IMG/VR virus record: IMGVR_UViG_3300017759_000092
Location: 1 to 23,068 of that record
Strand: one strand, 5' to 3'
DNA: 23,068 nt
DNA from: a virus
The position numbers were made by a program, and so were the translations under genes. Positions 2,275-19,702 of the stretch are shown here, one piece after another; position 1 is the first letter of the stretch; each line of letters begins with the position of its first letter. The notes beneath the pieces were generated by a model, which saw only the letters and a program-made list of their open reading frames with translations, was not told the origin of the DNA and searched no databases.

Positions 2275-3260
2275 TATCCCATAAGCCCTTTATAAAGACT
2301 CAGACCAGCTATGCCAGTTCCAAGCGCCTGTTGTATTGGATTGTAAGACTGAAATTTCTGTGACTCTGTAGAAGGTGCCACAGGAACACCCCTAAGAATA
2401 GATGAGTAGAACTGTAACTGTTCTCTTGGATAATCTCTTTGACGAACAAAATCTTCGTAAGCTGTATCAAGTCCAGCCTGATCTCTAGCCATTTGAGATT
2501 TGCCTATGCCCTCAAGTAACTGAGCAGCCTCGACATCACCAGCCCTAGCCGCCTTACCAAGCTCTGCCAGTTGAGCAGCTTGCTGACCACCAAGCTCTGC
2601 CGCACCAAGACCGAGTTTTTCTGCTGCTTGTCTTTCTGATGCCTGCGCCTGCTCAACACCAAGCCTAGCACCTCTGTCTCTCTCGAACTGACTTTGAGCC
2701 TGTTCAAATGCTTGTTGAGTTCCTGTGGCCTGTATGTTTGCGAGATTCCTAGCAAGTGCTTCTTGCGCCATTGAGTCTTGCACTGCTTGGCGCGAACCAC
2801 CAAACGCTCCGGCTTGCACTGCGGTTGCATCTCTGCCTGCTTGTTGTCTTTGATCCTCAAGTATTGCTTGTTGTTTCTGGACATCAATCACATTCTGTAT
2901 GTAGGGGGACATATACTTCTGAGCGGCGGCTGAATCAAACTCACCAGCAGCGCCAAACTGGGTTGGTGTGAACTGACTGCCTTGCTGCGCTCTTGCTATA
3001 TTTGCTGCTGTAGCCAGTTGAGCCGCTGGGAGACCCTGTATGCCTTGCCCAGCAGTTTGCCTAACCTGTGCCTCTGACGCAAGAACATCTGCCCCCGGAG
3101 TTGCTATTCTTTGACCAGTAAAAGGAGAATATGCAGCTTTAGATTCAGCTTCTGTTCTGTCCAATAGGCGTTCAAAATCACCTCGCACATATTCGGGCAA
3201 GTTTGTCTGCGTGACCGTTTGTGATGCTGGTTGTGGTGAACCGCCGCCGCCTTTACCCAT
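2274..3260 (-). CDS. Gln/Ala-rich internal virion (ejection-type) protein
   Basis: This 328-residue protein opens with a Gly-rich tail (MGKGGGGSPQP), then TQTNLPEYVRGDFERLLDRTEAES, a start seen in many marine phage proteins next to GNAT-like and lytic internal proteins. The body from about 75 to 290 is dominated by Ala, Gln, Glu and Arg, typical of long amphipathic helices, and has no Cys. The extreme C-terminus (LGTGIAGLSLYKGLMG) is hydrophobic and glycine-rich. Composition and position fit an internal core or DNA-ejection protein in the role of T7 gp14/gp15 or P22 gp7/gp20; that role is inferred, not shown by a catalytic motif. The ATG overlaps the upstream gene by 8 bases and its stop forms TAATG with the next start, so translation is probably coupled on both sides. 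Confidence 0.7.
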   Translation of the reverse strand: MGKGGGGSPQPASQTVTQTNLPEYVRGDFERLLDRTEAESKAAYSPFTGQRIATPGADVLASEAQVRQTAGQGIQGLPAAQLATAANIARAQQGSQFTPTQFGAAGEFDSAAAQKYMSPYIQNVIDVQKQQAILEDQRQQAGRDATAVQAGAFGGSRQAVQDSMAQEALARNLANIQATGTQQAFEQAQSQFERDRGARLGVEQAQASERQAAEKLGLGAAELGGQQAAQLAELGKAARAGDVEAAQLLEGIGKSQMARDQAGLDTAYEDFVRQRDYPREQLQFYSSILRGVPVAPSTESQKFQSYNPIQQALGTGIAGLSLYKGLMG

Positions 3261-3672
3261 TTTCTAACTCCATTCTATAAGCAATATATTCTGGTTTCCA
3301 TCCATGTTTTCCAAGCCAGCGTCCCCACGCCTTACGACCATAACCTTCTAGGTGAGTGCATTTATTGTCCCTTGCAAAGCTCTCCATAGTTTTTTGAGCC
3401 ATTGGAAGCCACTCACCCATTCTTGAACCACCTATCCAATCCATAGCCATCGCTCTTTTTCCGGGATAACTAATAACCCTTGTAGTGATGGCTGCTATAA
3501 CCTTTTCTTCTTCCATAATCACCCAAAGAACATATAGACCTGTTTTTATTCCGTGATAAAGGTCATCTATGTGATACTTGCCTCCGGATGTTTCAACTGA
3601 TTTGTGCATTACCCTGCTGACACCGTCCCAGACAATGCCAACAGCCTCCTTGGGAACTGCTGATATAATCAT
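3253..3672 (-). CDS. GNAT-like internal virion protein (T7 gp13-like role)
   Basis: A 139-residue protein that looks like a compact GNAT (acetyltransferase) fold. Central strands read LYVLWVIMEEEKVIAAITTRVISY, followed by KRAMAMDWIGG, a helix (WLPMAQKTMESFARDNKC), a strand with the EGYGR motif, and the C-terminal WLGKHGWKPEYIAYRMEL, a position where GNAT proteins often end. No clear Q/RxxGxG/A acetyl-CoA loop is visible, so it may be a non-catalytic relative. Small GNAT-like proteins of about this length, such as T7 internal protein gp13, occur next to ejection proteins in podoviruses, and the neighbours here agree. The start codon overlaps the upstream stop as ATGA (3669-3672), which indicates coupled translation. 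Confidence 0.68.
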   Translation of the reverse strand: MIISAVPKEAVGIVWDGVSRVMHKSVETSGGKYHIDDLYHGIKTGLYVLWVIMEEEKVIAAITTRVISYPGKRAMAMDWIGGSRMGEWLPMAQKTMESFARDNKCTHLEGYGRKAWGRWLGKHGWKPEYIAYRMELENG

Positions 3673-4967
3673 ACTGGTAGCATATCTCCTTGTGGTACTT
3701 GCTTAGGCTGCTCATCTTTTCCAGTCCTGAGATTTCTAACCCTATCCATCATTTCATAAAGAGCCTCAGAGCCAGCGTCAGTAGAACCGTTGCCAAGCCC
3801 ACTGACCACATCAGCAGGAACAATAAACTCACCATCTGAAAGAACAACATCCTGATCCCCTTCTAGGGTGGCTGGAATCATATCATCCATACCATCTCCG
3901 ATGCCTGACACCTTGCCCTCTTCAACCATAGCGTTTGCTTGGAACTCTCCTCGCTGCACACGGTCTACAAGATCTCTCAATGCTTCTTCGCCATATCGAG
4001 CGACAAATGCACCAAGAGCCACTTCTGGAGATGGTGACTTACCTTCGATTGCATCTACAGCACCACTAATAAGCTCTTTATCGTTTGCCTCTGGCATCAT
4101 GCCGCCTTCTTGCCTTCTTAACAAATCGCCAGTAATACCCGGCTGACTTAATTCTCTCATAATTAAATCTATTTCTGTTTGCTGGGATTTAGTTGTATAT
4201 TCGTCACTTGGCCCAAGCGCATCCAGCCTATCATGAAGTCCTAATCGTTCCTCTTTTGATAATACTTTGCCGCCTCTTCCATATGCCAGAGATGCTATAC
4301 CGCCTGACTTCAGGCTTGTTAAAGACTGATCAAAATAACCAAACTCTGGGTCAATTCCCGGCCTGTAATCTTTTCCGGGGTCTTTGGGATCATAAACCGC
4401 AGCCTCTGACTCAGGTCTGATTTTACCCTTTGGCATCATGCTACCCTCTAGCCCTTGAGGTGCCAGAAGATTTGTAGAACCCAAAGCAGTAGCACCTAGC
4501 GCACCGCCAACATAAGGCATAGCATCACCAGTGAAAGCTCCAGTGTAGCTTCCGGGGGTTTGCATTGCTGCTGTGGGGTCATTAAAAATACCACCTAGCT
4601 TTCCTGTGGCTCCTGTAGCCCCCAAATTCAGATTACTAGTTGCAGCGTCTGCCGCTGTGGTAGCACCCATTCCAGCAGATGTGGTTCCTGCAATCCTCAT
4701 GGGATCTGCAACAGTTCCTGCCCCTACTGTATTGGCTTGATTTGCAGCATTTATAGCGTCTGAACCACCACCCATCAATGACCCAAGCGCCTTACCACCA
4801 AGGTATGATGTGAGTCCTGTTTGGATGCCCTTGCCCAGATCTCCAGTCTCAAGATAAGACCCAAGTCCTGAGCCAATAGCGCCAGCACTTAAAGCACCTA
4901 GCCCCCCTAATAATCCAGCGCCGCCTAGGGCAGAGCCGCCTAATCCTAATAATAGTGGTAACGCCAT
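3669..4967 (-). CDS. Internal virion protein with glycine-zipper N-terminus and GEFIVPADVVSGLGNGS C-terminal motif
   Basis: A 432-residue protein. Residues 1-70 are a Gly/Ala/Leu-rich segment (LLLGLGGSALGGAGLLGGLG and onward) that could form glycine-zipper helices able to enter a membrane. The middle is low-complexity and Thr/Ala/Gly-rich, then comes an SLKSGGIASLAYGRGGKV module near 215-235, one of the GG motifs that recur in this window. The C-terminal 85 residues hold a motif I recognise from many marine phages: GIGDGMDDMIPATLEG, GEFIVPADVVSGLGNGS, then SEALYEMMDRVRNLRTG. The motif is highly conserved but, to my knowledge, without a known activity. AGGAG lies seven bases before the ATG. 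Its place between amidase and GNAT-like genes suggests a DNA-ejection or membrane-penetrating role; that part is inference. Confidence 0.72.
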   Translation of the reverse strand: MALPLLLGLGGSALGGAGLLGGLGALSAGAIGSGLGSYLETGDLGKGIQTGLTSYLGGKALGSLMGGGSDAINAANQANTVGAGTVADPMRIAGTTSAGMGATTAADAATSNLNLGATGATGKLGGIFNDPTAAMQTPGSYTGAFTGDAMPYVGGALGATALGSTNLLAPQGLEGSMMPKGKIRPESEAAVYDPKDPGKDYRPGIDPEFGYFDQSLTSLKSGGIASLAYGRGGKVLSKEERLGLHDRLDALGPSDEYTTKSQQTEIDLIMRELSQPGITGDLLRRQEGGMMPEANDKELISGAVDAIEGKSPSPEVALGAFVARYGEEALRDLVDRVQRGEFQANAMVEEGKVSGIGDGMDDMIPATLEGDQDVVLSDGEFIVPADVVSGLGNGSTDAGSEALYEMMDRVRNLRTGKDEQPKQVPQGDMLPV

Positions 4968-4976
4968 ATTATACTC

Positions 4977-5387
4977 CTATAGGGCTGCGTATTCTGATTT
5001 TGCGTCAAATGACGGGCAGGCTTTCTCCGAAAAATCACAGTGACCGTATATCTCTGCGTCTTCGTATCTATCAAGAATGTCTGACAATAGCTTTGCTAGT
5101 GTCTTTTTCTGTTCTTCCGTGCGTGTGTCTTTAGGATCTCCGTCAGAGTCAGCACCACCAACATAACATATCCCGATGCTAGTAGAGTTATGCCCTCTAC
5201 AATGAGCGCCATTGATCTCTTCAGGACGACCAGCATGAAGCGAACCGTCCAGCTCAACCACCCAATGATATCCAATATCACTCCAGCCGCGCTCTTCAGT
5301 GTGCCACCTCTTGATCTCAGCCGTCTTTACATCACGCCCCTCTGGGGTATCAGCGCAATGAACGATAACTTTATTAATCTCCCTCAT
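4977..5387 (-). CDS. T7-lysozyme-like N-acetylmuramoyl-L-alanine amidase (endolysin)
   Basis: This is a zinc amidase of the Amidase_2/T7 gp3.5 family that cuts the bond between muramic acid and L-alanine in peptidoglycan. Counting from the ATG at 5387 (136 residues), the zinc ligands are H10 (VHC), H116 (GHC) and C124, with Y40 (DIGYHW) and K122 as the catalytic pair. KACPSFD is identical to the T7 lysozyme motif, and the middle reads NSTSIGICYVGG, close to the T7 SIGVCLVGG. There is no signal peptide, so it would need a holin to reach the wall. I prefer 5387 because GGTGA lies at good distance; an upstream ATG at 5399 would add four residues. The N-terminus is shorter than in T7 lysozyme, so binding to a phage RNA polymerase cannot be assumed. 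It overlaps the phosphoesterase gene end. Confidence 0.9.
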   Translation of the reverse strand: MREINKVIVHCADTPEGRDVKTAEIKRWHTEERGWSDIGYHWVVELDGSLHAGRPEEINGAHCRGHNSTSIGICYVGGADSDGDPKDTRTEEQKKTLAKLLSDILDRYEDAEIYGHCDFSEKACPSFDAKSEYAAL

Positions 5388-5388
5388 C

Positions 5389-6399
5389 TTACTCACCATA
5401 CTCTTCTATTAAGTTGTTAATCGGTATCCAAGTTCTCTGATCTATTCTACCATCTTTTATTAGAATATCGTAGACCCCATATGACCATCCAGTAAGACTA
5501 TGTTTAGCATACTCTTCGACATGACCCTGCGGTAAACTGCAACCCAGATTAATTACAGTAAGAAACTGACCGCCCATCTTTGGAAAGGCTTTATCAAGTC
5601 TTTTATGGGTATGACCAAACACCACATCATGTAACGCATCCCTTGATATTTGGTTCTCACAGTGCATCCCACCGTATGCCTTACCCATTCCATTGATTGG
5701 GGCGTGTGTAAAACCCACATCTCCTACAAAATAGAACTCCTTATAAGGAGAGTATGTCCAGCCATAATCGTCCATAGTGGCAAACAGTATTTTATCAAGC
5801 ATATCCACTACTTCTGGATTTTTATTTGTGTACGACCATATTCTATCTTCGTGATTACCTAGAGTAACATGCCTAGGCACATCATATCCAGACAAACCCT
5901 TGTGAAAAGCCCTTATTGCTTCTTGAAAACTTTGCATGTCATCTCTAAATGACGGTTTATTTTGCCCTTTTACAGTGTCATTTTTATCAAAACTGTTTAA
6001 CGAGTCACAGGTAGCAAAGTCGCCTATTTGTATTATTTGATCTACCTGCTTTATTTTTGCGTAGTTTCCCATCGCAAAAAATCTGTTTTTATTCGAAAGA
6101 GACGGACTGTCGTGACAGTCCCCTATTGCTAAAACTCTTTTTGTCTCATCAGGTTTTGACTTTCTTTGTTGTATTCTGAATCTAGGTTGTAAAATAACAG
6201 TGGTTTGGTCTATTATTTTAGCCGCTGTGGCTGCTTGCTCAGTCACAATCCCCATCTCCCTAGCTTTTCTTAGGCGCGAAGTAAATGTTGAGTAATTTAC
6301 TTTAGCCTGTTGAGCGGCCTTTATTACACTTTTACCGTTTTCTATAAAAAAACGAGCTGTTTCTTCATATATTTCTCTAGGCAATGGTGGTTGGGCCAA
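5389..6399 (-). CDS. Calcineurin-like metallophosphoesterase with N-terminal helix-turn-helix-like segment
   Basis: A 336-residue two-metal phosphoesterase. The five family blocks are present: GDCHD (D94, H96), GDFATCD (D127), GNHED (N182, H183), FTHAP (H232) and GHTHKRL (H263, H265). The order and spacing fit a complete, likely active enzyme; the substrate cannot be told. Residues about 9-47, with IENGKSVIKAAQQAKVNYSTFTSRLRKARE, look like a small DNA-binding HTH of the Psq/Tn3-resolvase style seen in phage DNA-packaging-type small subunits. The first codon is TTG (6397-6399), supported by AAGGGG about eight bases upstream. The gene follows the only sizeable non-coding gap in this half, which holds a promoter-like sequence and a perfect hairpin, so it may be expressed separately from the structural genes. 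Confidence 0.85.
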   Translation of the reverse strand: MAQPPLPREIYEETARFFIENGKSVIKAAQQAKVNYSTFTSRLRKAREMGIVTEQAATAAKIIDQTTVILQPRFRIQQRKSKPDETKRVLAIGDCHDSPSLSNKNRFFAMGNYAKIKQVDQIIQIGDFATCDSLNSFDKNDTVKGQNKPSFRDDMQSFQEAIRAFHKGLSGYDVPRHVTLGNHEDRIWSYTNKNPEVVDMLDKILFATMDDYGWTYSPYKEFYFVGDVGFTHAPINGMGKAYGGMHCENQISRDALHDVVFGHTHKRLDKAFPKMGGQFLTVINLGCSLPQGHVEEYAKHSLTGWSYGVYDILIKDGRIDQRTWIPINNLIEEYGE

Positions 6400-6479: not shown

Positions 6480-6866
6480 TCACTTTTTGCCAAAAAATTT
6501 GGTTGCTGCGCGTGTTCCAAAGCTAGCAGCTACGATTGTTCCCAATGTATATTGGTAGTAGGTTGGCATGGTCTCCAAGGCCATAAATCCGTCAGATACT
6601 ATTTGTCTGCCCCAATCACCACAGAATGATAGTATTAGAGGGATTGAGAAGATTATAGTAAGCCATTCGTCTTTCCAGCTATGGGCAGAAGCATCAGCCA
6701 TCTTTAGATCCCAGTCGATCTCTCCTGTTGCTTTTTTCTGCATAACCACAGCCTCAGCCTGAGCCTGAGCCACCCTAGATGCAGTTTCTGCTTTTTTTGT
6801 TTCAACCTTGCCTTCAAGCCAAGTACCAACAAGAGACCCTATTGGGCCTATAAGAGCCTGTATCAT
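6480..6866 (-). CDS. Holin-like membrane protein (Holin_3TMs type)
   Basis: A 128-residue protein that I read as the holin, which opens the inner membrane so that the amidase can act. An amphipathic N-terminus (MIQALIGPIGSLVGTWLEGK) is followed by a charged Ala/Glu/Lys helix (about 20-46), then SWKDEWLTIIFSIPLILSFC (about 63-82) as a first clear membrane segment and a second around 103-118 (YYQYTLGTIVAASFGT). The KDEWLTIIFSIPLIL pattern is typical of the three-TM holins of gene-transfer-agent and marine phages. I chose the ATG at 6866, preceded by AAGGGG at a good distance; the frame stays open upstream to 6935 but has no good signal. The gene lies next to the EF-hand membrane gene and close to the amidase, a classical lysis block. 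Confidence 0.75.
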   Translation of the reverse strand: MIQALIGPIGSLVGTWLEGKVETKKAETASRVAQAQAEAVVMQKKATGEIDWDLKMADASAHSWKDEWLTIIFSIPLILSFCGDWGRQIVSDGFMALETMPTYYQYTLGTIVAASFGTRAATKFFGKK

Positions 6867-6968
6867 TATGATCCCCTTACATACATAAATCTTCATACTT
6901 CGTGGTGTGCCGCCTGTGTTCTGACATATCACCACTTCTACAACTTAAAAATCTAATCAACCAAGCAA

Positions 6969-7289
6969 TCATTTTTTATTCATCCACGCTGTTGTTCCCA
7001 TATATGCGCCGACTATACCTGCACCACTGAGGAATATAAGATCAGTGACCGCTCCAAGCCCCTCTAATTTTTCTGCTGAACACCAAGGAGATGCTAAAAA
7101 TAGTGCGTAACAACCCATAAATATTAAAGTGTATCTAGCCATTCTTAACTGAGCTAAATTTTTTCTTAACTCAGTCTCTGTCTTTTTTATCTCCTTAACG
7201 TGAGAAAGCTCCTCGTCTGTTACGATACCATCCCCGTCTTCATCGTACTCAGCATACGCAGAATCTGTTTGTAATTTTTTCTGAGCCAT
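6969..7289 (-). CDS. EF-hand protein with two membrane segments, candidate holin or lysis regulator
   Basis: A 106-residue protein. Residues 16-27 (DEDGDGIVTDEE) match the canonical EF-hand loop at all key positions: D16, D18, D20, G21, V23 and E27, so calcium binding is likely. A charged, probably coiled helix follows (about 28-47), then hydrophobic segments at about 50-69 and 80-99. The size and two-TM layout next to the three-TM holin suggest a membrane lysis protein, either a second holin, an antiholin or a sensor. The function is not established by sequence. Its start is preceded by an exact 18-base palindrome whose loop carries the only SD-like bases (TAGG), an arrangement repeated at 19190. 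Confidence 0.7.
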   Translation of the reverse strand: MAQKKLQTDSAYAEYDEDGDGIVTDEELSHVKEIKKTETELRKNLAQLRMARYTLIFMGCYALFLASPWCSAEKLEGLGAVTDLIFLSGAGIVGAYMGTTAWMNKK

Positions 7290-7307: not shown

Positions 7308-7597
7308 TATGATACAGAAACAGTAACAGTGCCTAGTGAAGTGGTTGCTGATACTGTACCTGAGTGTATTTCGGTTTTGCCGACAATCTTTAGAAAGCCG
7401 CCGTCAGCTATATATATGTCTCCTTGAGACAGAAGATTATTATTTCCGTCCGTTGGTATTTCCTGAAGGTTTAATTGAGGGTTTTGTGCCTGCCTTAAAA
7501 ATATTTCTAAAGCTCGCACTAGATCGCTAATGTACTTTTCGTCTATGTTTTGTGGAGCTGTTGGAAGCCTTGGAAATGGCGTTACGTTTGTAGCCAT
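7307..7597 (-). CDS. Small virion structural protein of unknown function
   Basis: A 96-residue protein starting MATNVTPFPRLPTAP. The first half has a predicted helix (EKYISDLVRALEIFLRQAQNPQ) and the second half is a series of short beta strands (DIYIADGGFLKIVGKTEIHSGTVSATTSLGTVTVSV). The strand-rich end with alternating Val/Thr is typical of tail or head accessory proteins. The ATG shares TAATG with the end of the nozzle gene and GGGAG lies at good distance, so it is probably made together with that protein. I do not recognise a named family; a tail accessory role is inferred from position. Confidence 0.6.
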   Translation of the reverse strand: MATNVTPFPRLPTAPQNIDEKYISDLVRALEIFLRQAQNPQLNLQEIPTDGNNNLLSQGDIYIADGGFLKIVGKTEIHSGTVSATTSLGTVTVSVS

Positions 7598-9483
7598 TAT
7601 CTTCTCCCATCAGGACGAACATCCACCCTAGGACTTCCGAGCCTCCATCTAACCCCGGTTGTGTTACAATCTATCTTAATAGAGTAAGCTCTGCCTCTAA
7701 GCCTTACATCTGCCTTATTAGTGTATTGCTCAAAAGGAACTGTGGTAGATGTGGCGGTTCTGTCTATCTGACTAATCTCTGATTGCAAGAAGTTACCGCC
7801 GGGAAAGTTGTTTGCCTGCAAAGTAACATTTACCTTTGGGTCAGCGTTTGTTGATCCGTTAAAAGTGAGGTCAGGTATTACTCTAGTTATAAAAGAAAAC
7901 TTGTCACCCGCTCCCATATCCATAGGGCTTGACTCAATTGACGATACCATTACAGAGCCATCGTCACTGTATCCGCTCTCGTGGTTAAATAAATAGTTGC
8001 CTTCAGCGCCTATTGGGAAATCTCTTATACCCTTATCCAAAAAGGCTGACCTGCCAAGGTTTCCATAGTACCAAGTGTCTTCAGCATAATTAAATATGAC
8101 GTATCTATTGTTTTCACCTGTGCCACCATTGGCAGTGGAGTTCCCATCAGAACAATAAAACCATACGACCTCACTAAACTGCGAGTTTACGGCAGCGTAC
8201 ACTTTATCAGCCTGATCAAAATCAAAATCAAAGAAAACTCTTTCTCTGACAGAGCATGGTAGTTGTTTTGTCTTACCATCATAAACATAGAAGTTTTGCC
8301 TGCCCATCCAATATACAGAGTCTTCTACAGCTATCGCTGCGTTTGGCCCCATTATGGTGGTGTTAGAAGCTATTGGCTGTATGCCAAATGTAAACGGCGC
8401 TCCAATAAACTGCATAGAATGCACAGAGCTATCAGTTATAATGATAATCTCTCTTTTGGTCTCTATGGCTTTTACAAACTTAGATCCAGAACCTATGCGA
8501 AGATCTCCGGCAGTGTTTGTTGATGTGGGATTCCAATCTAAAAATGACTCTTGATCGGAAAATCTTATAAGAAGTGGATCTTGATCCGTTCCACCCAAGG
8601 GATTAGCGCCAAAAGCTATGACATGCCTATCTACATCAGACACCATGATCTGTTTAGCTATAATTGGACACTCTTTAGCTCCTGCTATTGATGATATTTC
8701 CACAGCCCTTGTTGTAACTCCATTACTCTTATCCCAATGATATATAGAGCTGTCTCTAGGATTTATAAGCAGATCCTCTCCAAAGTTGTCCTGACTCCAA
8801 ACACGAAGAGATGTTACCACGCTGATTGTTGTGCCTGACCCCCAAGTGCCTCTACCCCAAGTTCCAGCTCCCCATCCGTTTCCGCCAACACCTGTGTTTA
8901 GTCCAGCGTTTATCTGGTAAACGCCGTCAACACCAGCTCCACCATTGCCGCTATCGCTTGCATTGGCTATTACAGTGGTGCCGCCTGTGTCTTTCGCTAC
9001 AAAGGTATAGGTGCTTGATGATGGCACAGATGCTATTTCATACTCTTGATTTAGAACCGCCGCTGTTACCAGTCCGCCCAAACTAACAGCGTCAGAAAAG
9101 GTAACAAAGTCACCTACCGATGCGCTGTGTCCGCTATCAGTTGCTGTAATTGTTGATGAGCCATCTGTTGCAGAAAATGTTACACCGTTTGTTGTTGTTT
9201 TTCTAATCGGTGTAATATCGTAAAAAGCCTGACCCTGCTCTATATAATATTTGGATTCTGTCCCCACACCCAATAAGTCAGATCCATCTAAAGCAACCCA
9301 GTTAAATAAGCCTCTGGCTGTGCCTATATATGTGTTTTGAGAATACTTCTCCCAGCCGCCTATCACCTCTGGATAGCCCTGCCTAAATCTAATTAAGTCA
9401 CAGTCTACCCATCCCCCCTCATTAGAGTAAGATGTGATATCCCTATTTATGCCGGGGGTAAATTGCAGTTTGCTTAAAGCCAC
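7597..9483 (-). CDS. Tail nozzle-like protein (P22 gp10-type)
   Basis: A 628-residue protein that opens MALSKLQFTPGINRDITSYSN, then WVDCDLIRFRQGYPEVIGGWEKY, a start that I associate with P22 gp10-like stabilisation or nozzle proteins of short-tailed phages. It is beta-rich throughout, with an inserted Ser/Thr/Gly-rich segment (about 98-200) and a GWGAGTWGRGTWGSGT repeat near 203-218, after which beta-propeller-like strands resume (LRVWSQDNFGEDLLINPRDSS, SVYWMGRQNFYVYDG and NRYVIFNYAEDTWYYG). The end RGRAYSIKIDCNTTGVRWRLG fits the same family. It would form the tip of the short tail. The start is GTG with GGGGAG upstream; the stop overlaps the next start as TAATG. The assignment rests on pattern memory, not a search. 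Confidence 0.72.
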   Translation of the reverse strand: MALSKLQFTPGINRDITSYSNEGGWVDCDLIRFRQGYPEVIGGWEKYSQNTYIGTARGLFNWVALDGSDLLGVGTESKYYIEQGQAFYDITPIRKTTTNGVTFSATDGSSTITATDSGHSASVGDFVTFSDAVSLGGLVTAAVLNQEYEIASVPSSSTYTFVAKDTGGTTVIANASDSGNGGAGVDGVYQINAGLNTGVGGNGWGAGTWGRGTWGSGTTISVVTSLRVWSQDNFGEDLLINPRDSSIYHWDKSNGVTTRAVEISSIAGAKECPIIAKQIMVSDVDRHVIAFGANPLGGTDQDPLLIRFSDQESFLDWNPTSTNTAGDLRIGSGSKFVKAIETKREIIIITDSSVHSMQFIGAPFTFGIQPIASNTTIMGPNAAIAVEDSVYWMGRQNFYVYDGKTKQLPCSVRERVFFDFDFDQADKVYAAVNSQFSEVVWFYCSDGNSTANGGTGENNRYVIFNYAEDTWYYGNLGRSAFLDKGIRDFPIGAEGNYLFNHESGYSDDGSVMVSSIESSPMDMGAGDKFSFITRVIPDLTFNGSTNADPKVNVTLQANNFPGGNFLQSEISQIDRTATSTTVPFEQYTNKADVRLRGRAYSIKIDCNTTGVRWRLGSPRVDVRPDGRR

Positions 9484-18249: not shown

Positions 18250-18930
18250 TTACCCTCCTAGGTAAAATGTGTCGTATGGTACAAATTTTAACGCAGAGGA
18301 ATCAGTGTCCTCGTTTGCTGCCAGTTCAAACTGGAACTCATATTCCTGCTTTAGGGGGGCAACCCTATTTGCCACTTCTGGTTTCTTCATAGCTATATAA
18401 TACGCTAATCCTGTCACCAGACAAGGCACAAACCTAGGTGGTACAGCGGCTGTCCCAGATATACCGGAAGTTATCCCATCTATCCCCAGAAGGTAGTAAT
18501 AAGCGAGCGTATACGATGCCGCACTGTCTGGTACAGGCCAGAGAGTAAAAGTTGTAGACGTTGCCAGTCTCTGCACAAAGATCTGCGAAGGCTTGCCTTG
18601 AGCGTTTTTATTGCTTGTTTTAGCGTATGTAGAAACCGAAATCCTCTGAACGTCAGTATCGACTTGATTCGTGCCAGTACCTGTACGAATTTGTTGCTCA
18701 ATAAGGTCAATCGTTCCCGTAGGTAACGTATAAGTTGCTGTGCCTGCTGTAAGAGCTTGCGTCCCAGCATTGATAGTCCACAAATTAAGTCCACGATTTT
18801 GCCACTCCAATGTTAAAAGGTTAAAACTCCGCCTAGCGGTTTTAAGATCATACCCAGTTTGTAAAGAGAGTCCCGCTCTTTCAAACGCCTCTTCAAATAT
18901 CTCTGGTAGGTCGGGTGTTACAACAGCCAT
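18250..18930 (-). CDS. Second adaptor-like or head-completion virion protein
   Basis: A 226-residue protein. It opens MAVVTPDLPEIFEEAFERAGLSLQTGYDLKTARRSFNLLTLEWQNRGLNLW, helical, then a beta insert (TATYTLPTGTIDLIEQQIRTG, IFVQRLATSTTFTLWPVPDSAASYTLAYYYLLG) and a helical end (FVPCLVTGLAYYIAMKKPEVANRVAPLKQEYEFQFELAANED). The helix-strand-helix plan is like the adaptor at 16070-16747, and this family is abundant in marine phage metagenomes. It may be the portal-side adaptor, a stopper, or a tubular protein; sequence alone does not settle which. It shares TAATG with the small basic gene upstream and ends one base before the LysM gene start. Confidence 0.68.
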   Translation of the reverse strand: MAVVTPDLPEIFEEAFERAGLSLQTGYDLKTARRSFNLLTLEWQNRGLNLWTINAGTQALTAGTATYTLPTGTIDLIEQQIRTGTGTNQVDTDVQRISVSTYAKTSNKNAQGKPSQIFVQRLATSTTFTLWPVPDSAASYTLAYYYLLGIDGITSGISGTAAVPPRFVPCLVTGLAYYIAMKKPEVANRVAPLKQEYEFQFELAANEDTDSSALKFVPYDTFYLGG

Positions 18931-19190
18931 TATTTGACCTTCCTATGCGGCTTTACTTTAGCTCGTATCGTTTTAGGCTGCTTTGCAAACTGCTTACCAG
19001 CCTTAGTTGCTTTTCTTTTAGCACGGGTGGTGGCCGCATATTCCTTAGACGAGAGGGCTTTAATAGCTGATGCCGGAAGATATCTTTCTCCCGTTGCCTT
19101 CGGCCCTTGTGTGGACGGCTTTCCACTCTTGGTTCTCCACTTCTGCTTAGTCCAAGACTTCAAACTTCTTTGCGATTTTTTTAACGGCAT
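18930..19190 (-). CDS. Small basic protein with KSWTKQKWRTKSGKPS motif
   Basis: An 86-residue protein, about one third Lys and Arg. The pattern LKSWTKQKWRTKSGKPSTQGPKATGERYLPASAIKALSSKEYAATTRAKRKATKAGKQFAKQP is shared by many phages and large viruses from sea samples; I do not recall an assigned activity. It has no Cys, so zinc binding is unlikely. High positive charge suggests nucleic acid or internal-capsid binding, which is inference. The ATG is preceded by AGGGA in the palindromic leader at 19191-19208 and the gene shares TAATG with the adaptor-like gene that follows. Confidence 0.68.
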   Translation of the reverse strand: MPLKKSQRSLKSWTKQKWRTKSGKPSTQGPKATGERYLPASAIKALSSKEYAATTRAKRKATKAGKQFAKQPKTIRAKVKPHRKVK

Positions 19191-19208
19191 AAAGTTCCCT
19201 ATAACTTT
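19191..19208. repeat. Junction palindrome (site A) before the small basic gene
   Basis: On the minus strand the sequence is AAAGTTATAGGGAACTTT, a 7-bp inverted repeat with one mismatch and loop TAGG, directly followed by ATG. It starts inside the stop codon of the upstream gene, exactly as site B does at 7290-7307. Over the 23 bases from the stop codon to the ATG the two sites differ at one base. The TATAGGGA core also resembles the start region of T7-class promoters, though the upstream half does not. Confidence 0.75.
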
Positions 19209-19702
19209 TAAACATTAAGAGCTGCGGCTACCGAAACCATTAAAAAAACAAAAAGACCAATGATTATTATTGTAAGAGCAAAAATACCCAAACCCATTTT
19301 TATGTTATTTTCCAACTCTCTTTGTTTTTTTATCTGCTCTCTTTTGGCTGCTGCCGCCGCTTCCTTTGCTTCCCTTATTCTTTTGGCCCTTTCCTCAGTT
19401 ATACTTTTCCAAGTACCGTGACCAAACCTCATATCAACCATAGAGGCTATTTCCTGCATTTGCTCTTTAGCAAGTTTTGCATTAATAACCTCAGTTGCTA
19501 CTGATTTTACACCAAATTGATCAGCAACACCACCAACACCTGATTTTTTACTTCTTAACTTCTGTACCTGTTTTTCACCCTCAAATAAATTATCTATATA
19601 ACTTGCTATATCACCCACATCATTAGCTGTGCCGATAGCACCTTTAATGCCATCAACTGCCGCCTTGAATAATGATATACCCGCGAGGGTCTCTGCAATC
19701 AT
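19208..19702 (-). CDS. Membrane-anchored protein of unknown function (MIAETLAGISL family)
   Basis: A 164-residue protein. The start MIAETLAGISLFKAAVDGIKGAIGTANDVGDIASYIDNLF is amphipathic, followed by VADQFGVKSVATEVINAKLAKEQMQEIASMVDMRFGHGTW and a highly charged helix (about 102-132, EERAKRIREAKEAAAAAKREQIKKQ), then one strong membrane segment at about 136-160. I recognise the family from T4-like cyanophages and other marine phages, where it has no assigned function. The layout, a long cytoplasmic or virion part with a C-terminal anchor, could suit a lysis regulator or membrane-entry protein, but nothing proves it. It follows the 56-residue gene with one base between stop and start. Confidence 0.65.
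   Translation of the reverse strand: MIAETLAGISLFKAAVDGIKGAIGTANDVGDIASYIDNLFEGEKQVQKLRSKKSGVGGVADQFGVKSVATEVINAKLAKEQMQEIASMVDMRFGHGTWKSITEERAKRIREAKEAAAAAKREQIKKQRELENNIKMGLGIFALTIIIIGLFVFLMVSVAAALNV

Follow-up and report, generated by a model that had tools for sequence, protein, structure and literature searches.

A small two-helix membrane protein with a strictly conserved loop of the calcium-binding type is carried by many aquatic phages, probably as part of their lysis machinery. We studied this protein, hereafter the EF protein, in a stretch of 23,068 nucleotides comprising positions 1 to 23,068 of the IMG/VR virus record IMGVR_UViG_3300017759_000092 (the window). The gene (6969–7289, minus strand) has an ATG start and encodes 106 aa, and the product falls in phrog_27150, a PHROGs family with no assigned function that was matched by 33 of 37 members of the EF protein family. 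A comparison of the whole window with named phages at the DNA level gave no similarity.

The sequence-only reading had described a perfect EF-hand loop standing before two membrane segments, and we confirmed the open reading frame, the ligands and both hydrophobic segments. The loop, DEDGDGIVTDEE (residues 16–27; 7209–7244, minus strand), has the ligands D16, D18, D20, G21 and E27, and agrees with an EF-hand in having D/N at positions 1, 3 and 5, G at position 6, a hydrophobic residue at position 8 and E/D at position 12. In the six-frame ORFs of the window (16,150 residues), this loop alone matched a PROSITE-like EF-hand pattern, and the strict loop arose in a fraction of 3.5e-5 of 200,000 shuffles of the window protein. 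The Pfam EF-hand_1 model (PF00036) scored the single window protein with an E-value of 0.0031 and 17.4 bits, under the curated cut-off of 25.4, and matched 14 of 14 family members at E-values up to 0.1; we name the window protein a predicted "EF-hand loop" protein rather than a curated Pfam EF-hand member. When a profile of 37 relatives was compared with calmodulins, profile positions 8–32 matched with a whole-sequence E-value of 6.5e-9, a figure that sums the several hands of calmodulin, as no single stretch passed the limit alone. With the calmodulin-type EF-hand (PF00036) the EF protein has in common the canonical 12-residue loop, all ligands and an exit helix, but it has one hand rather than a pair, and its exit helix continues, in the model, into a membrane helix.

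Averaged over 17 residues on the Kyte-Doolittle scale, the two hydrophobic segments of the window protein peak at 1.55 and 1.68. TM1 (approximately residues 50–66; 7092–7142, minus strand) is assigned with modest confidence and is weak by hydropathy in the window copy, in which a 19-residue scan with a threshold of 1.5 detects TM2 only. The Gly/Ala-rich TM2 (approximately residues 83–103; 6981–7043, minus strand) is placed by the AlphaFold model, hydropathy and the alignment together. Both segments attain a 17-mer Kyte-Doolittle value of at least 1.2 in 218 of the 232 aligned rows. The AlphaFold model of the window protein has helices at residues 25–66 and 72–105 with a modest mean pLDDT of 70.7, and a second model has a mean pLDDT of 66.9; from both, the helix pattern alone was used. 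In the model of the window protein the entering helix of the EF-hand comprises residues 13–15 only. In both models the exit helix is long and runs unbroken into TM1, which is followed by TM2. According to the charge rule, the N and C ends are both cytoplasmic in 231 of 232 aligned rows, which points to a predicted N-in/C-in topology.

One IMG/VR scan matched at least 579 stretches, of which the best 80 of 579 were used. Named carriers of the EF protein are the Roseobacter phages CRP-1, CRP-9, CRP-207, CRP-345 and CRP-810, Limnohabitans phage DC31, Pelagibacter phage HTVC008M and four Methylophilales phages (Melnitz group). Because the first scan included a loop peptide pattern, it was repeated with the membrane part alone as the query. 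Conservation of the loop in relatives had been set beforehand as one of the points on which the sequence-only reading could fail, and it passed: the strict loop was kept in 228 of 230 intact proteins of loci new to the membrane-part-only searches, truncated copies (6 of 236) having been set aside. The two intact exceptions have D at position 6 (L169) and Q at position 12 (L227). We also aligned 228 distinct proteins, leaving out copies with fewer than 25 residues before the match and one masked protein that was not placeable (L093). Position 1 was D in 227 of these (one masked), position 3 was D in 163 and N in 65, position 5 was D in 226 and N in 2, and position 6 was G and position 12 E in 227 each. 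Since the ligand positions are near invariant while the non-ligand positions 2, 7, 10 and 11 vary (1.8–2.8 bits) and the ligand codons show synonymous variation, the loop is under strong selection exactly at the calcium-coordinating positions and does not reflect chance inheritance. Even the outlying family members CRP-810 and CRP-345 retain a D-x-N-x-N-G loop.

In the window the EF gene is followed by genes for a phrog_2524 protein of 128 aa from the likely ATG (6480–6866; the ORF opens at 6935), a metallophosphoesterase (phrog_221; 5389–6399) and an N-acetylmuramoyl-L-alanine amidase endolysin (PF01510, phrog_822; 4977–5399), all on the minus strand and the latter two assigned by family match. 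The neighbour had earlier been called holin-like. That description holds as a relationship by profile comparison with GTA_holin_3TM (PF11351), not as a holin function by name, as phrog_2524 carries none. PF11351 was matched by 11 of 21 sequences in an alignment of phrog_2524-cluster neighbours and reference proteins, and a global profile comparison of the phrog_2524 subset with the holin subset gave a probability of 95.7 percent. Of 194 distinct non-T4-like loci, 103 have a member of a companion family, c0 (a C-terminal TM protein, phrog_32327-like), no more than 2.5 kb from the EF gene. The copy of c0 in the window (19208–19702, minus strand) lies 12 kb from the EF gene, as does the gene for a small basic protein (18930–19190, minus strand) that by eye resembles CRP-1 gp57 and HMO-2011 gp59; the CRP-1 counterparts of both stand directly upstream of the EF gene. 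It is as if the cassette were split in the window, with c0 and the small basic gene set apart from the EF gene.

Outside the T4-like phages, the EF gene is embedded in varied lysis cassettes in most lineages. Flanks of 2.5 kb or more were available on both sides in 85 distinct non-T4-like loci. Of these, 61 had an endolysin gene within 2.5 kb, 30 a spanin gene, 47 a holin-family gene and 78 any of the three; the lysis HMMs were made from neighbours of these same, mutually related loci, so that the counts are not independent and describe a pattern, not a probability. The CRP-type loci had both endolysin and spanin within 2.5 kb in 27 of 27 cases and a recognised holin-family gene in none of the 27, and the window-type loci had a holin-family gene in 42 of 48 and an endolysin in 26 of 48. 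The endolysins near EF genes are of unrelated types (M15-like, T4-type lysozyme, amidase and GH108), and gene order varies as well. The EF gene is followed by a PF11351 holin and GH108 in CRP-810, by a spanin and then an endolysin in CRP-345 and DC31, and by an endolysin and then a spanin-like gene in CRP-1 and CRP-9. CRP-207 is an exception, as the neighbour annotated as a lysozyme matches no lysozyme family; this "putative lysozyme" (gp73, L002:3292–3873) has no lysozyme match in Pfam or PHROGs and looks like a membrane-anchored coiled coil.

Contig L020 has two EF two-TM genes, at 3001–3318 and 4717–5025, which belong to different subtypes; a phrog_2524-cluster gene stands directly before the latter. 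On a 263 kb contig of a SAR116 single-cell genome (L088), the EF gene directly follows a T4-type lysozyme gene and a holin-family gene lies downstream, an arrangement that suggests a prophage.

The context in T4-like phages is different. In HTVC008M the EF gene is flanked by the hub-assembly gene and the tape measure; in Melnitz-3 the hub-assembly gene is again on one side, and on the other is a large gene positioned like the tape measure. No lysis gene was found near the EF gene in any of 21 T4-like loci with full flanks, nor in any of the 66 distinct T4-like loci in all. An adenylate/guanylate cyclase gene is present on the opposite strand just past the large gene adjoining the EF gene in both HTVC008M (L003:6547–8321) and Melnitz-3 (L005:6943–8303). 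In the excerpted text of the Melnitz paper (PMC9004378), CsgG is proposed for pinholin-like control, and "holin" is absent there as the start of a word. That proposal, like ours for the EF protein, is an attempt to explain lysis control in these phages; CsgG, unlike the EF protein, is a curli pore protein, and we put the EF protein forward as another candidate for these phages.

Two unrelated genomic slots hold either the EF protein or phrog_10198, a two-TM protein that lacks an EF-hand; this exchange between sister phages is newly described here. In CRP-13, phrog_10198 occupies the EF slot and is followed by a phrog_2524 protein. This phage infects FZCC0023, the host strain common to CRP-1 and CRP-9, and its endolysin is 70 and 72 percent identical to theirs. 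The protein is also present in CRP-901, and in CRP-406 it directly precedes an amidase. Among 81 distinct phrog_10198 loci with flanks, c0 was found in 66, a holin-family gene in 58 (directly downstream in 55) and an M15-type endolysin in 60. The second slot is seen in the pelagimyophage Mosig, where phrog_10198 directly follows the hub-assembly gene and is separated by one 42-codon ORF from the large gene in the tape-measure position. A search with the Mosig protein gave 74 distinct loci, EF-less loci being told apart here by their last 180 bases, and 34 of the 74 showed the hub context. Mosig and HTVC008M, with the EF-less and the EF form respectively, have a common host strain, HTCC1062. 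Within the flanks available, phrog_10198 was absent from all 331 EF loci, and the EF protein from all 247 phrog_10198 loci.

phrog_10198 matched 358 named-phage records (348 Vibrio, five Roseobacter, two Puniceispirillum, two "Phage" and one Pelagibacter, the latter being Mosig). No EF carrier was found among the best 60 of the 358; one Roseobacter and two "Phage" records lie outside these 60. The family includes proteins of KVP40 (L502:2965–3195), Vibrio phage D2 (L501:2950–3201) and many other Vibrio phages, and in the KVP40 and D2 loci none of the scanned neighbours is named as lysis. Homology between the EF protein and phrog_10198 was considered and not accepted: the hhalign probability was approximately 0.1–10 percent, and the best HMM E-value, 0.0077, came from a six-sequence search. 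The phrog_10198 proteins (CRP-13 gp73, CRP-901 gp43, Mosig_00135 and KVP40.0094) resemble the EF protein in their two hydrophobic segments, slots and neighbours, but have no EF-hand and no detectable homology to it. We infer that the two are interchangeable parts doing one job.

The EF protein matched no holin family, the best being Phage_holin_3_6 with an E-value of 0.019 in 3 of 14 members, and PF11351 was absent among the families matched by the 14 EF members. GTA_holin_3TM/phrog_2524 is a lysis-module membrane protein and the adjacent partner of the EF protein in most window-type loci; the EF protein is not a member of that three-TM family, which differs in sequence and has no EF-hand. Fold searches against the PDB and viral models returned nothing significant (best E-values 8 and 1.6). 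NCBIfam has no family for the window protein. The calcium-binding effector model XopAW matched 8 of 37 members weakly (best E-value 0.0026), a signal that we attribute solely to the EF loop, and three other matches were weak and confined to single members. None of the matches listed in a search of the open-access literature treats an EF-hand membrane protein in phage lysis; the MetSV paper (PMC9694453) concerns, as far as its excerpt goes, a host gene. A parallel in architecture is LysF1a of the mycobacteriophages Girr and NormanBulbieJr, described in the abstract of PMC13056207 as acting jointly with another holin-like protein next to the endolysins. It is likewise a small two-TM protein with a predicted N-in/C-in topology, but its host is mycobacterial and the abstract mentions no EF-hand.

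A small membrane protein that changes places with a second one, just upstream of holin-family and endolysin genes, fits best as a holin or holin partner, which is how we read the slot. The reading that we prefer, and to which we give an even chance, is that the EF protein is a membrane component of the lysis module with both termini, and thus the EF-hand head, in the cytoplasm, acting either as a small holin of two helices or together with the neighbouring 3TM holin-family protein. The earlier alternative of an antiholin gained no support over holin or holin partner. Judging from its sequence, the loop would bind calcium, and the EF protein may respond to it. Oligomerisation would pair the single EF-hands, and at submicromolar cytoplasmic calcium the loop would be empty. 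A cytoplasmic EF-hand would make a leak-triggered response possible: on leakage of the membrane the loop would become calcium-bound and signal through the exit helix, continuous with TM1, to the membrane pair, and the resulting positive feedback would end in abrupt final membrane failure. The EF-less counterpart would perform the basic membrane job without calcium input. Since sister phages that share a host strain may have the EF or the EF-less form, calcium sensing is not a requirement for the function of the slot, and the EF-hand would be an optional cytoplasmic calcium-responsive module. The proposal of a calcium-sensing lysis protein is therefore retained in part: the lysis neighbourhood in most lineages and the cytoplasmic EF-hand predicted from charge speak for it, and the tail-gene cluster of the pelagimyophages and the EF-less sisters against it. 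Its emphasis on sea-water calcium is not upheld, as the freshwater phage DC31 keeps the loop too. A stronger version, in which the EF protein is a calcium-gated holin whose remaining molecules are opened by calcium entering through the first lesions, would make it the unrecognised holin of HTVC008M and Melnitz and phrog_10198 its EF-less version in Mosig; we regard this version as rather unlikely.

The same observations can be accommodated by other explanations, which we rank in the order given here. The protein could be a lysis membrane protein whose EF-hand is not a sensor but serves structure or assembly constitutively, being either permanently occupied or a site at which calcium does no more than stabilise an oligomer. 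Single EF-hands can act structurally, and the filling of the same slot by EF-less proteins in sister phages of the same host fits this role; the head being cytoplasmic by charge, however, a very high affinity would be needed for the loop to be occupied before leakage, and we consider this explanation improbable, though the foremost of the rivals. A membrane factor for tail assembly or DNA entry is less likely again. It would account for the T4-like context (66 distinct loci), in which the EF gene has the hub-assembly gene and the tape measure as neighbours, and for the position of the window EF gene two genes downstream of a putative tail stabilisation protein (7597–9483, a virion structural family match whose similar proteins are annotated as stabilization protein), but not for the invariable endolysin and spanin neighbours of CRP-type loci or for the terminase genes of CRP-1, which lie further on.

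A role in superinfection exclusion or immunity comes last and appears very unlikely, with the EF gene merely near lysis genes. T4 Imm is a small two-TM protein, as is the EF protein, and the pelagimyophage site is not a lysis cassette. Against this role stand the repeated linkage to several unrelated endolysin types, spanin and holin-family genes and the replacement of the EF protein by a second two-TM protein in its slots. Holins are timers, which fire at a critical concentration or on collapse of the membrane potential. A conserved calcium loop in a lysis membrane protein, if true, would add an ionic signal to holin timing. Sister phages that share a host strain but differ in having the EF or the EF-less form constitute a ready-made natural experiment, and the EF protein and phrog_10198 provide concrete lysis candidates for the abundant phages of SAR11, OM43 and Roseobacter.
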